Positions 19,980 to 26,220 of a DNA stretch of 35,796 nucleotides are shown here, piece by piece. How positions within the stretch are numbered: the stretch's first letter is position 1; each line of letters begins with the position of its first letter. Position numbers and translations under genes: made by a program. The notes under the pieces are model-generated. The model worked only from the letters and a program-made list of their open reading frames with translations, did not search any database and was not told where the DNA came from. Source of the stretch: Pedosphaera sp. (GTDB taxonomy: Bacteria; Verrucomicrobiota; Verrucomicrobiia; Limisphaerales; UBA1096). Location: assembly GCA_022451065.1 (NCBI GenBank), contig JAKUOU010000002.1:2262-38057 (forward strand), given 5' to 3'.

Positions 19980-21137
19980 ATGATTTACCTCGACCACCTC
20001 ACGACCACGCCGCCGCTGCCGGAAGTGGTCGATGTCATGCAGCCTTGGCTACGCGCGCAGTTCGGCGCAGCGGCCTCACTGCACAAGCTCGGCCTCGAGG
20101 CGCGCGATGCCATCGACGAATCACGGGCGCGCCTGGCCAAGCTGGTGAACGCCGCCGAGCCGGAGGAAATTATTTTCACCTCCAGTGGCACTGAGGCAAT
20201 CAACCATGCGGTCAAGGGTGTCGCCCTAGCCAACCACCGTTTTGGCAGCCACATTGTCACCACCGGGATCGAGCATCCGGCTGTACTTGGCTCAATCGCC
20301 TGGCTCGAAAGCCAGGGCTTCAGCAGCACGCAAGTCGGCGTCGATGGCCAAGGCCGTGTCGATCCCGGCGCACTTGGCCAAGCGATGACCGACGAGACTA
20401 TTCTGGTCTGTTTGCACCATGCAAACCACGACCTCGGCACGGTGCAATCGATCACCGATGTGGCCGAACTCACCAGCGCGCGCAGCATCCCGCTGTTCGT
20501 CGATGCCACCGCAAGCGGCGGGTGGCTACCAATTAATGTACAGCAACTTGGCGTCGATCTGCTGGCCCTGGCACCGCACCGCTTTTACGGCCCGAAAGGG
20601 GTTGGTGTCCTGTACAAAAACCGGCGTGCGCGCGTTGAAAAACTCCTTCATGGCGGGATGCAGGAAAATGAGTTTCGTGCCGGCACGGAAAACGTGGCCG
20701 CGATCGCCGGAAGCGGAGTCGCCGCTGAACACGCCAAAGCTGCGCTTGCCCAAGGGGCGGCACACGCGACCAAGCTGCAAGTGCGACTGCTCAAGGGCAT
20801 TAGACAAGCCGTCGAGGGGGTTCACTTGAACGGCCCAGAGCCGGACGACGGGCGGCTGCCGCATCAGCTCAACCTCAGCACTGAGGGCGTCGAGGGAGAA
20901 GGTCAGGCGCTGATGCTCGACATGCAGGGCGTCGCCATTGCCGCTGGGGCGGCGTGTACGACACGGTCGATGCGCCTGCCCCCTGCCCTTCTCGCCATCG
21001 GCCGCGACGCCGATCTGGCCAAGGGTACCACTCTTTGGGGGATCGGCCGCGACACCACGGAGGCGGAGATCGACTTGGCGGTCGAGTCATTCGCGGTAGT
21101 CACGGCTAGGTTGCGCAGCATGACGACGGCTCATTAA
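19980..21137 (+). CDS. cysteine desulfurase (NifS/IscS)-like protein lacking the PLP-binding lysine
   Basis: Class V fold: TSSGTEAINHAVKG, GIEHPAVLGS, FVDATASGGW, APHRFYGPKGVGVLYKNRR, GGMQENEFRAGTENVAAIAG, AAGAACTTRSMRLPPALLAIG. The usual HK is HR here. Confidence 0.85.
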   Translation: MIYLDHLTTTPPLPEVVDVMQPWLRAQFGAAASLHKLGLEARDAIDESRARLAKLVNAAEPEEIIFTSSGTEAINHAVKGVALANHRFGSHIVTTGIEHPAVLGSIAWLESQGFSSTQVGVDGQGRVDPGALGQAMTDETILVCLHHANHDLGTVQSITDVAELTSARSIPLFVDATASGGWLPINVQQLGVDLLALAPHRFYGPKGVGVLYKNRRARVEKLLHGGMQENEFRAGTENVAAIAGSGVAAEHAKAALAQGAAHATKLQVRLLKGIRQAVEGVHLNGPEPDDGRLPHQLNLSTEGVEGEGQALMLDMQGVAIAAGAACTTRSMRLPPALLAIGRDADLAKGTTLWGIGRDTTEAEIDLAVESFAVVTARLRSMTTAH

Positions 21138-21216: not shown

Positions 21217-21453
21217 GTGGCTGAAATCGAAGACAAATACGAGGAAAACACTGCCGGCAAATATTTTGTGGATGAACAGTGCATCGACTGTGATCTCTGC
21301 CGCGAGACAGCACCATCCTGCTTCACTCGGAATGACGACGGGGGCTACTCCTTCGTCACAAAACAACCGGAGAACGAGGAGGAGGAGGAACAGTGTAAAG
21401 AGGCTATGGATGGCTGCCCTGTGGAAGCCATCGGCGACAACGGCGCCGACTAG
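21217..21453 (+). CDS. small acidic 4Fe-4S ferredoxin
   Basis: GTG start; KYFVDEQCIDCDLCRETAPSCF...CKEAMDGCPVEAIG. Confidence 0.9.
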   Translation: MAEIEDKYEENTAGKYFVDEQCIDCDLCRETAPSCFTRNDDGGYSFVTKQPENEEEEEQCKEAMDGCPVEAIGDNGAD

Positions 21454-22847: not shown

Positions 22848-22890
22848 CCTTTGATTGACCTTGTCCAAGTGCAGGCGCATTCTGCTGCCT

Positions 22891-23265
22891 ATGAAACATT
22901 CTCCCGGTTTTCTGGCTGTAGTCGATGAAGCACGAACGCGAGTGAACGAGATCGACCTGGATCAGACCCGCCAACGCCTAGCGAACAACCCGGAAGCCAT
23001 CCTGATGGACGTACGTGAGGACAAGGAATGGGTGACCAGCCACGCAGCAGGCGCCGTTCACTTGGGCAAAGGAATCCTCGAGCGCGACATCGAGTTGGTG
23101 GTGCCGAACAAGGGTGCGGAAATGATCATGTACTGCGGCGGGGGATTTCGCTCGGTGCTCACGGCGGAGGTGGCTCAGCGAATGGGCTATACGAATGTCC
23201 ACTCGCTCATCGGCGGCCACAAAGCGTTCGTCAACGCCGGTTGGGATATGGAGAACGGTGAATGA
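22891..23265 (+). CDS. rhodanese-like domain protein
   Basis: MKHSPGFLAVVDEARTRV...ILMDVREDKEWVTSHAAGAVHLGKGILERD...MIMYCGGGFRSVLTAEVAQRMGY with the active-site Cys loop. Confidence 0.92.
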   Translation: MKHSPGFLAVVDEARTRVNEIDLDQTRQRLANNPEAILMDVREDKEWVTSHAAGAVHLGKGILERDIELVVPNKGAEMIMYCGGGFRSVLTAEVAQRMGYTNVHSLIGGHKAFVNAGWDMENGE

Positions 23266-23301: not shown

Positions 23302-24219
23302 CTACTTCATCTTATTGAAGTTGGCCTGAAGGATGTCATGGGCCTGCTGGCCCTTGAACTTGCTCTGGGCAGCCTCGATGACTCCGGTCTCAAGGGCGTT
23401 CTTCGTCGGGCGCTGCACCTGGTAGAAGATGCCAAAACGGCCCGGAAAATCCTCCCCGGCCACGGCATACGCCGCCGCCTCATCGGTGGGATCGTGATCC
23501 TCCGGCATGAGTTTGAACTCGCCTCCCTTGCGGGGATTGGAGCTGTCAAATGCACCCGCGAAAAACTCGGTGCACTCACTTAAGCACTCGATGAAACTGA
23601 AGCCGTCATGATCCATCGCGGCGTCCATCATCTCGAGCAAGTGCTTGGGATTGGTGTGCGACGTTCGGGCCACAAAAGTCGCCCCGGCCGAGATGGCGAG
23701 CTTCATCGGGTTGACCGGCTGGTCGAGCGCACCCCAGTTGTCGGTCTTGCTCTTGAAACCAATCGGCGAAGTCGGCGATGTTTGCTTCTTAGTCAGGCCG
23801 TAGACGAAATTATCCATGACCACGTAAGTCATCTTGACGTTTTTTCGGGCGGTGTGGACAAAGTGGTTACCGCCGATGGAGAAGGCGTCGCCGTCGCCGC
23901 CGAAGGTGAATACGTGCAAGTCGGGTCGCGAGATGGAGAGTCCACTGGCGAAGGATAACGCGCGACCATGAATGTAATGCACGCCATGTGCCTGCACAAA
24001 GTACGGAAAACGGCTGGAGCAGCCGATGCCGGCTACGGTGGTCACGCTCTCGTGAGGGATGTTTCGCTTCTGGATCAGTTTGTAATAGATGGAGAGCACG
24101 GAAAAATCACCGCAGCCCGGACACCAAGTCGGCGTATCGGCGGTGATCTCTTTTTTGGTCACCGGTTGGCGTTCCCCGGCGTCCTGTGAGGATTGCTCTA
24201 TTGTTGCACTGTCACTCAT
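23302..24219 (-). CDS. korB: 2-oxoacid:ferredoxin oxidoreductase, beta (TPP) subunit
   Basis: TWCPGCGDFSVLSIYYKLIQKRNI; GIGCSSRFPYFVQAHGVHYIHGRALSFASGL; TFGGDGDAFSIGGNHFVHTARKN. Confidence 0.92.
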   Translation of the reverse strand: MSDSATIEQSSQDAGERQPVTKKEITADTPTWCPGCGDFSVLSIYYKLIQKRNIPHESVTTVAGIGCSSRFPYFVQAHGVHYIHGRALSFASGLSISRPDLHVFTFGGDGDAFSIGGNHFVHTARKNVKMTYVVMDNFVYGLTKKQTSPTSPIGFKSKTDNWGALDQPVNPMKLAISAGATFVARTSHTNPKHLLEMMDAAMDHDGFSFIECLSECTEFFAGAFDSSNPRKGGEFKLMPEDHDPTDEAAAYAVAGEDFPGRFGIFYQVQRPTKNALETGVIEAAQSKFKGQQAHDILQANFNKMK

Positions 24220-24234
24220 CTTGTTTAAATTGTA

Positions 24235-26058
24235 TCAGGCAGTGACCGGCTCTTCTGCTCTGCTCGCCTTTACCCGCTCGATGATTTCCGAAACCTTCCA
24301 CCGACGGGCGGCTGTCTTGTTGATGCCTTTGATGCGCGCATCGGCAAACCGGGCGCGGAGTACGCCGGCCAACTGGCCGTAGCCGTAGACACCGCCGTCG
24401 TTCATCTCGACGACATAGACCGAATTAAACCGCGAAAAAATGGCATCCAAACCATTCGGCAATGGGTTGATGTGTTTGATGTGCAGTGCGGACAAGGCAT
24501 CGCCATTGTTGCTGAGTTCTTCCACCGCCTCGAGGAGAGGCCCCTTGGTCGATCCCCAGCCCACCAGCAGCACGTCACCGGAGTCCGCCCCGTACACCTC
24601 AGGGACGGGCAATTCATCCGCAAGTGTCTTGAGCTTGTTGCGACGTTTTTTTGTCATCGCGATATGGTTCACCGCATCACCGCTGGGATGCCCCGACTCG
24701 TCATGCTCCAGGCCAGTCACCACGGGGTAACGGCCATCCTCAATCCGCGTGCCGGGAGCCCGGTGTTGGCTGAGCCCGTCTCCGGACGACAAGTCGTACG
24801 GCTTGTGCGACGGAACGGGGCTCAAGTCCAGTTCAACATCCTTACAAATCGTTTTCAGATCCGGCTCGTTGAAAGCCTCGATGCGAGTGGCTATGGCCTG
24901 GTCACTGAGCACGAACACGGGGACGCTGAATTTGCGAGCAATATTCACCGCCTCGATGGCGGTATAAAAACAATCCTCAACGTCGGAGGCGGCCAACACC
25001 ACACGGGGCGAGTCGCCGTGGCCACCGTACAAGGCGATATTGAGATCTGACTGCTCGACATCAGTCGGCAAACCAGTGGAGGGGCCGCCGCGTTGCACGT
25101 CGATAACCACCAGCGGCATCTCCGCCATGACAGCCCACCCGATGGCCTCTGTCTTCAGTGAAATACCCGGGCCGCTCGATCCGGTGACCGCCACATGCCC
25201 GCCGTAGCTCGCGCCTATCGCCATCGAGACGGAGGCTATCTCATCCTCGCACTGGATGAACGACCCGCCGTACTTGGGCAACTCGCGTCGGAGCAATTCC
25301 ATGATGTCCGACCACGGCGTGATAGGGTAACCGGCACCAAAACGAACCCCTGCGGCGATCAGCCCGTAGCCGATCGCCTCGTTCCCGGACATCACCACCT
25401 GGTTCGAACGCTCAGCACCGCCCCTGGCTAGGCGAAACAGATTGGAGATATCGCCAGACTGATAACGACAACCAGCCTGGAAGGCGTCCATCGCCGTCTT
25501 CACGATGCTTTCGCCCTTGCCACCAAACCGCTCATTGATTAGCCGCTCGAGCTTCGTCGTATCGAGGCTGAACATCCCGGCGATCAAGCCAAGCGCATAA
25601 ATGTTCTTGCCCTTGTCACGGGCAGTGCCGCCGATCGCCTCGACTGTCAGGCTGGAGATGGCGATACCAATGTGCCGATACTTGGTCAGCCATTCTTCAC
25701 ACGGTTCCACGTGGTCACTGTCGTAAACCAGAATGCCCCCCTTGGTGAGGTTATTGACATGATTATCGTATGAGTGCTGGTAAAAGGCAAAAAGCACGTT
25801 GGCTTTGTCACCGGGGCTCAGCACCTCACCGGAGCCAAGGCGCACCTGAAAAATGGATGCTCCTCCCGAGATGGTCGACGGGATCGTCATCATGGTCATG
25901 ACCTCTCGCTCGCGCCTCCCCGCCAACCGCGCCAAGAACCCACCGATGGACTGGATCCCGTCTTGGGAGTTACCAGCGAGTCGAATCGTCGCTTCAGAAA
26001 TATCGGATGCCCGGGAATCGTTCCCGTTATTGGCCTCCGAAACAGTCGTCTCGCTCAT
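24235..26058 (-). CDS. korA: 2-oxoacid:acceptor oxidoreductase, fused gamma-alpha subunit
   Basis: N-terminal gamma domain (SGGASIFQVRLGSGEVLSPGDKANVLFAF), alpha domain GNEAIGYGLIAAGVRFGAGYPITPWSDIMELLRRELPKYGG, EDEIASVSMAIGASYGG. Start MSETTV at 26058. Confidence 0.92.
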   Translation of the reverse strand: MSETTVSEANNGNDSRASDISEATIRLAGNSQDGIQSIGGFLARLAGRREREVMTMMTIPSTISGGASIFQVRLGSGEVLSPGDKANVLFAFYQHSYDNHVNNLTKGGILVYDSDHVEPCEEWLTKYRHIGIAISSLTVEAIGGTARDKGKNIYALGLIAGMFSLDTTKLERLINERFGGKGESIVKTAMDAFQAGCRYQSGDISNLFRLARGGAERSNQVVMSGNEAIGYGLIAAGVRFGAGYPITPWSDIMELLRRELPKYGGSFIQCEDEIASVSMAIGASYGGHVAVTGSSGPGISLKTEAIGWAVMAEMPLVVIDVQRGGPSTGLPTDVEQSDLNIALYGGHGDSPRVVLAASDVEDCFYTAIEAVNIARKFSVPVFVLSDQAIATRIEAFNEPDLKTICKDVELDLSPVPSHKPYDLSSGDGLSQHRAPGTRIEDGRYPVVTGLEHDESGHPSGDAVNHIAMTKKRRNKLKTLADELPVPEVYGADSGDVLLVGWGSTKGPLLEAVEELSNNGDALSALHIKHINPLPNGLDAIFSRFNSVYVVEMNDGGVYGYGQLAGVLRARFADARIKGINKTAARRWKVSEIIERVKASRAEEPVTA

Positions 26059-26220
26059 CGAGAATATGAAATAAATTTGCCCCATCCGCCCCCAAGAGGT
26101 GGGGACGACGGCGGCGAAAGTAGCAATCTTTTTGGACGTGTCAAACGATTATCCATTCTAATGGAAAATATTTCATTTACTTCTCCACCATGATCGTTCC
26201 GAGCATGAACTTGGCCAAGT

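Follow-up and report, generated by a model that had tools for sequence, protein, structure and literature searches.

The IscS of the ISC pathway is regarded as sulfur supplier and platform at once. The window, by which we mean the whole stretch of 35,796 nucleotides analysed here, encodes an IscS/NifS-fold protein with an arginine at the position of the catalytic lysine (IscS* in the following), which raises the question of what such a protein could still contribute.

Active-site residues and predicted fold

In canonical enzymes, Arg354 holds the carboxylate of the substrate. Lys206 binds PLP as the internal aldimine (PMC8300815). The reading frame of the window encodes an Aminotran_5 protein of 385 residues, running from ATG to TAA without a single internal stop. 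The gene, its informative codons and its downstream neighbour are:

19980..21137, plus strand: iscS*, IscS/NifS-fold gene without the Schiff-base lysine (ORF, alignment, AlphaFold model, Foldseek)
20427..20429, plus strand: codon of His150, which replaces Asn155 (alignment)
20511..20513, plus strand: codon of Ala178, which replaces the PLP-contacting Gln183, turning DATQ into DATA (alignment)
20577..20582, plus strand: codons cac cgc of His200-Arg201, the arginine corresponding to E. coli IscS Lys206 (alignment)
20955..20957, plus strand: codon of Cys326, the mobile-loop cysteine corresponding to E. coli Cys328 (alignment, model)
21033..21035, plus strand: codon of Leu352, which replaces the substrate-carboxylate Arg354 (alignment)
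21117..21137, plus strand: shortened C-terminus SMTTAH and stop, without the SP[LM]W tail region
21217..21453, plus strand: [4Fe-4S] ferredoxin (Fer4_13), directly 3' of iscS* in every copy of the genus with a retrieved 3' flank

In the alignment to E. coli IscS (sequence of PDB 1p3w; AfIscS was represented by the sequence of PDB 4eb5), the arginine that the first-pass annotation had placed at the Schiff-base position is indeed found there, and His200-Arg201 sit within LALAPHRFYGPKG of the translation. The other substitutions claimed from the sequence, alanine for the glutamine of DATQ and leucine for the substrate-carboxylate arginine, are borne out as well, and the histidine and the sulfur-accepting cysteine said to remain correspond to His99 and Cys326. 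Thr71, Asp175, His200, and Thr236 are also kept. The serine before H-K is lost as claimed (Ala198 at E. coli Ser203), but this is a trait of the window subclade because serine is present in 78 of the 111 aligned copies of the order. Canonical IscS/NifS proteins such as E. coli IscS and human Nfs1 thus have the fold, the mobile-loop cysteine, His104, and Asp180 in common with the window protein, whereas the equivalents of their Lys206, Gln183, Asn155, and Arg354 are lost in it.

The AlphaFold2 model of the monomer has a pLDDT of 90 and a pTM of 0.89. Segments with a pLDDT below 50 are the loops 223-229 and 325-329, of which the latter holds Cys326 and is predicted to be flexible. Foldseek matched the model at TM scores of 0.92-0.95 to human Nfs1 complexes, AfIscS, and E. 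coli IscS, its closest neighbours among solved structures, and the class I fold and loop architecture are accordingly present in the model. Against the NCBIfam NifS model the window protein scores 354.6 bits at a cut-off of 530.75, and it passes none of the curated NCBIfam desulfurase cut-offs. The HK paralogue of the same genome reaches 560.5 and lies above the NifS cut-off.

Conservation and canonical paralogues

All orthologues of the genus (L004-L013; L040-L056, separate assemblies) have arginine at the lysine site, which is part of a PHR motif in all but one (PYR). Chance or a sequencing error is therefore ruled out. Among 293 sampled genomes of the GTDB order, homologues were found in 144, about half, at E <= 3.5e-81, and one copy each from 111 genomes was aligned. 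Position 201 is arginine in 103, lysine in seven, and alanine in one of these copies, so that the HR pair, whose conservation had been left to comparison with orthologues, is maintained far beyond the genus. Cys326 is present in all 111. At position 352, a single copy has arginine and the other 110 have Ile, Leu, Val, Thr, Ser or Met, and the position of Asn155 is mostly histidine (80 of 94 loci in the motif listing). The equivalents of Lys206, Gln183, Asn155, and Arg354 are lost together in IscS*, and the equivalent of Cys328 is kept in all 107 aligned family proteins, canonical and lysine-less. Most pairs have dN/dS ratios of about 0.10-0.20; a few pairs of very close sequences have higher values, 0.37 at most. 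Together with the order-wide conservation, this sustains the earlier suggestion of a repurposed fold rather than decay.

Outside the order, 288 further genomes of the phylum were sampled, and only three of them encode such a protein (E <= 1e-75); the fourth match at this threshold is a canonical HK protein. In one IscS* copy (L083 of G172) H-R is replaced by A-A (SAAAFGGP), and the loop cysteine is still present. Two relatives from one family of another order of the same class (L089 and L090) have Y-R and R-G at the H-K position. In a search of non-subscription literature, judged by title and abstract, no paper describing a lysine-less IscS in Verrucomicrobiota was found.

The window genome (86% complete) does encode canonical enzymes elsewhere, a check that the first-pass annotation had proposed. 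A canonical IscS with H-K, D-A-V-Q, and S-L-R-F-S is found on contig C176. A SufS with H-K is encoded on contig C169 in a sufBCDE-sufT-sufS-rhodanese-IscU-like operon, whose gene names were read from translations except for NifU_N and rhodanese, which were profile-scanned. A canonical IscS (E <= 1e-100) is also present in 126 of the 144 genomes of the order that carry IscS*.

Gene context, IscU, and the C-terminal tail

Many of the order's other families have IscS* in an operon Rrf2/IscR-IscU-IscS*-ApbC/Mrp (iscR-iscU-iscS*-apbC); at the remaining loci it is accompanied by apbC alone or by neither apbC nor iscU. Defining a canonical-grade IscU by a NifU_N match of E <= 1e-40, 65 genomes of the order contain one, of which 64 also encode IscS*, and the two genes adjoin, or nearly so, in 62 of the 65. 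With one exception, these IscUs retain Cys37, Asp39, Cys63, Lys103, His105, and Cys106. The window genus differs from these relatives. The NifU_N search did not find a canonical-grade IscU in any of its sampled genomes, a SUF-type NifU_N is all that the window genome and its congeners possess, and the ApbC gene of the window genome lies elsewhere, away from iscS*. The IscU-like protein encoded last in the SUF operon (L003:336-833 on contig C169) has glutamate at position 39, reading CGE instead of CGD, as does that of a congener (L112).

In E. coli IscS, a C-terminal segment is part of the IscU interface, and deletion of residues 374-404 is reported to abolish IscU binding (PMC2854127). IscS* proteins adjoining IscU mostly retain a tail of the form SPMWDEFERGVIDSVI, and the window protein, ending in SMTTAH, lacks the SPL[YW] tail. 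Of 39 genomes with canonical IscU, 38 have the tail, versus 18 of the 72 without canonical IscU (Fisher p 1e-14). However, on the tree IscU changes only four times and the tail eight times, and the association is non-significant after phylogenetic correction. Because of these few independent changes it is suggestive, and we do not count it as independent proof.

The ferredoxin gene next to iscS* was also considered as a functional hint. Of 116 genomes of the order, 111 carry this gene, with identities mostly of 65-79%, and in the other families examined it does not lie next to iscS*, so that its adjacency is weak evidence. It may instead belong with the 2-oxoacid:ferredoxin oxidoreductase-like alpha and beta genes nearby (window 23302-26085, named from translation), which are in synteny across the genus. 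Another genome has about five ferredoxin genes in tandem that are related to the one in the window (G072:C1:2968356-2970436).

Other lysine-less IscS proteins

After removal of the active-site columns from the alignment, the HR proteins form one clade (100/98), whose sister at 89/85 support is a clade of IscS proteins from Deltaproteobacteria MAGs (L015, L016, L019, L022, and L023). This N-Q clade has lost the lysine, Arg354, and Gln183 as IscS* has, and in L015, L016, and L019 iscU is located directly upstream, a pairing as in the IscS* relatives. It differs in having A-N-Q-F for the P-H-R-F of IscS* and in retaining Asn155 and the SPLY tail. A Syntrophobacterales-type genome (G584) carries an IscS of the N-Q type besides a homologue with P-A for H-K (L102), which groups with AfIscS.

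AfIscS itself joined the lysine-less proteins in a first tree that included the active-site columns, and it separated from them once these columns were removed. AU tests on shared ancestry with AfIscS gave p values of 0.27-0.56 (0.555 for one clade), which neither establish nor reject a single origin of all lysine-less IscS proteins. The likeness of the two proteins is considerable. AfIscS (PDB 4eb5 and 4hvk; D199K mutant 4r5f) and the window protein have the class I IscS fold in common, both lack the Schiff-base lysine, have DATA for DATQ and leucine for the substrate arginine, and have kept the loop cysteine. AfIscS is a partner of IscU, like the IscS* relatives with iscU. AfIscS, with a natural aspartate at the lysine site, is reported to be inactive and to ligate the [2Fe-2S] cluster on IscU through a cysteine (PMC7585200). 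The parallel to AfIscS drawn in the first-pass annotation holds for the residues (N-D for H-K, DATA, and TLLLTLG in AfIscS). The cluster-ligand role, however, is not directly transferable because the window genus has no canonical IscU and the tail is truncated. AfIscS is furthermore archaeal, has the SPLY tail, and has N-D where the window protein has H-R. The Methanosarcina acetivorans IscS1 is also reported without the catalytic lysine and encoded in an iscSU pair (PMC7585200); it is archaeal and uncharacterised and is compared here by its published description.

Possible function of IscS*

IscS* keeps the class I fold, the cofactor-ring residues His99 and Asp175, and the mobile-loop cysteine. 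It would form no internal aldimine with PLP and would lack the usual means of binding the cysteine carboxylate; cysteine desulfuration is therefore most likely absent. That the loop cysteine is strictly kept although both lysine and arginine are lost points to a function as a thiol or ligand. From the sequence comparisons, we regard it as likely that IscS* is an IscS-derived pseudo-desulfurase that was ancestrally a partner of IscU and has only the thiol or ligand function in the window genus. The ancestral protein was probably a stoichiometric IscU partner. Sulfur would come from another source (canonical IscS, SufS, rhodanese, or sulfide), the loop cysteine would accept a persulfide or ligate the nascent cluster on IscU, and the cluster would then be handed to the ApbC/Mrp carrier. 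For the iscU-bearing relatives, the model that fits best by analogy is an AfIscS-like platform whose mobile cysteine ligates the cluster or accepts a persulfide. Because the dedicated IscU and the docking tail are gone in the window genus, IscS* probably keeps only the thiol or ligand function there and would work with a different protein, perhaps the IscU-like one encoded in the SUF operon.

Concerning the cofactor, the pocket seems to be kept: Asp175 (111/111) and His99 (107/111) are nearly invariant, which means that the protein may still bind and use a cofactor of the PLP type, Thr71 is found in 104 of 111 copies, and position 201 has a positive charge in 110. Aminotransferase-fold dehydratases without the lysine, such as ColD, catalyse other reactions with non-covalent PLP or PMP, and IscS* might still be an enzyme of this kind. 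We consider this unlikely given that the amino-acid-carboxylate arginine is lost in 110 of the 111 copies, that the pocket is otherwise variable at the Gln183 and Asn155 positions, that the gene context is Fe-S assembly, and that the positive charge is absent from the N-Q clade and AfIscS.

The rhodanese gene at 22855-23265, which is in synteny across the window genus, and the invariant Cys326 on its presumably flexible loop would also fit a pure persulfide relay, in which rhodanese or canonical IscS loads Cys326 and the sulfur is passed on without cluster ligation. But the rhodanese gene lies past an oppositely oriented cinA gene, and no rhodanese was found beside IscS* in the other families examined, which makes this reading somewhat less probable still.

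If Arg201 or another residue stood in for the lysine, a weak cysteine desulfurase activity could have been kept. The seven copies with lysine at position 201 could point in this direction, but Gln183 and the usual SxR motif (the latter as judged from the motif listing) are absent from them too, and those placed in trees fall among the arginine copies, so that the lysine seems dispensable there. The lysine of GPKG (Lys206 of the window protein) was considered as a substitute and rejected, being lysine in only 96 of the 111 copies, nor does the site have any other conserved lysine. With the inactivity reported for the natural-aspartate AfIscS (PMC7585200), we regard residual desulfuration as very improbable. 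That iscS* is just a decaying or mis-sequenced iscS, as the missing catalytic residues might suggest, is hardly credible and is refuted by the low dN/dS ratios, the recurrence of these residues in independent assemblies and across many families, the intact ORF, and the well-folded model.

The lysine-less protein of the window is thus real and conserved, and it is probably a pseudo-desulfurase, a variant of the AfIscS kind and not a separate category: as in AfIscS, the lysine is replaced, Arg354 and Gln183 are lost, and the cysteine is kept, although the encoding together with a canonical IscU is seen in its relatives and not in its own genus. More tentatively, and with somewhat less than even confidence, about half of the sampled genomes of the order might contain a dead IscS, sulfur release and scaffolding would have been split, and the IscS* of the window genus may have outlived IscU and gained an IscU-independent cysteine function. 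For annotation, this means that the automatic name cysteine desulfurase can mislead across much of a bacterial order. AfIscS is no longer just a curiosity of archaea but stands among at least three groups of lysine-less proteins that can be recognised. With a large natural family in which the chemistry is gone while platform and cysteine persist, the two roles of IscS would become experimentally separable.
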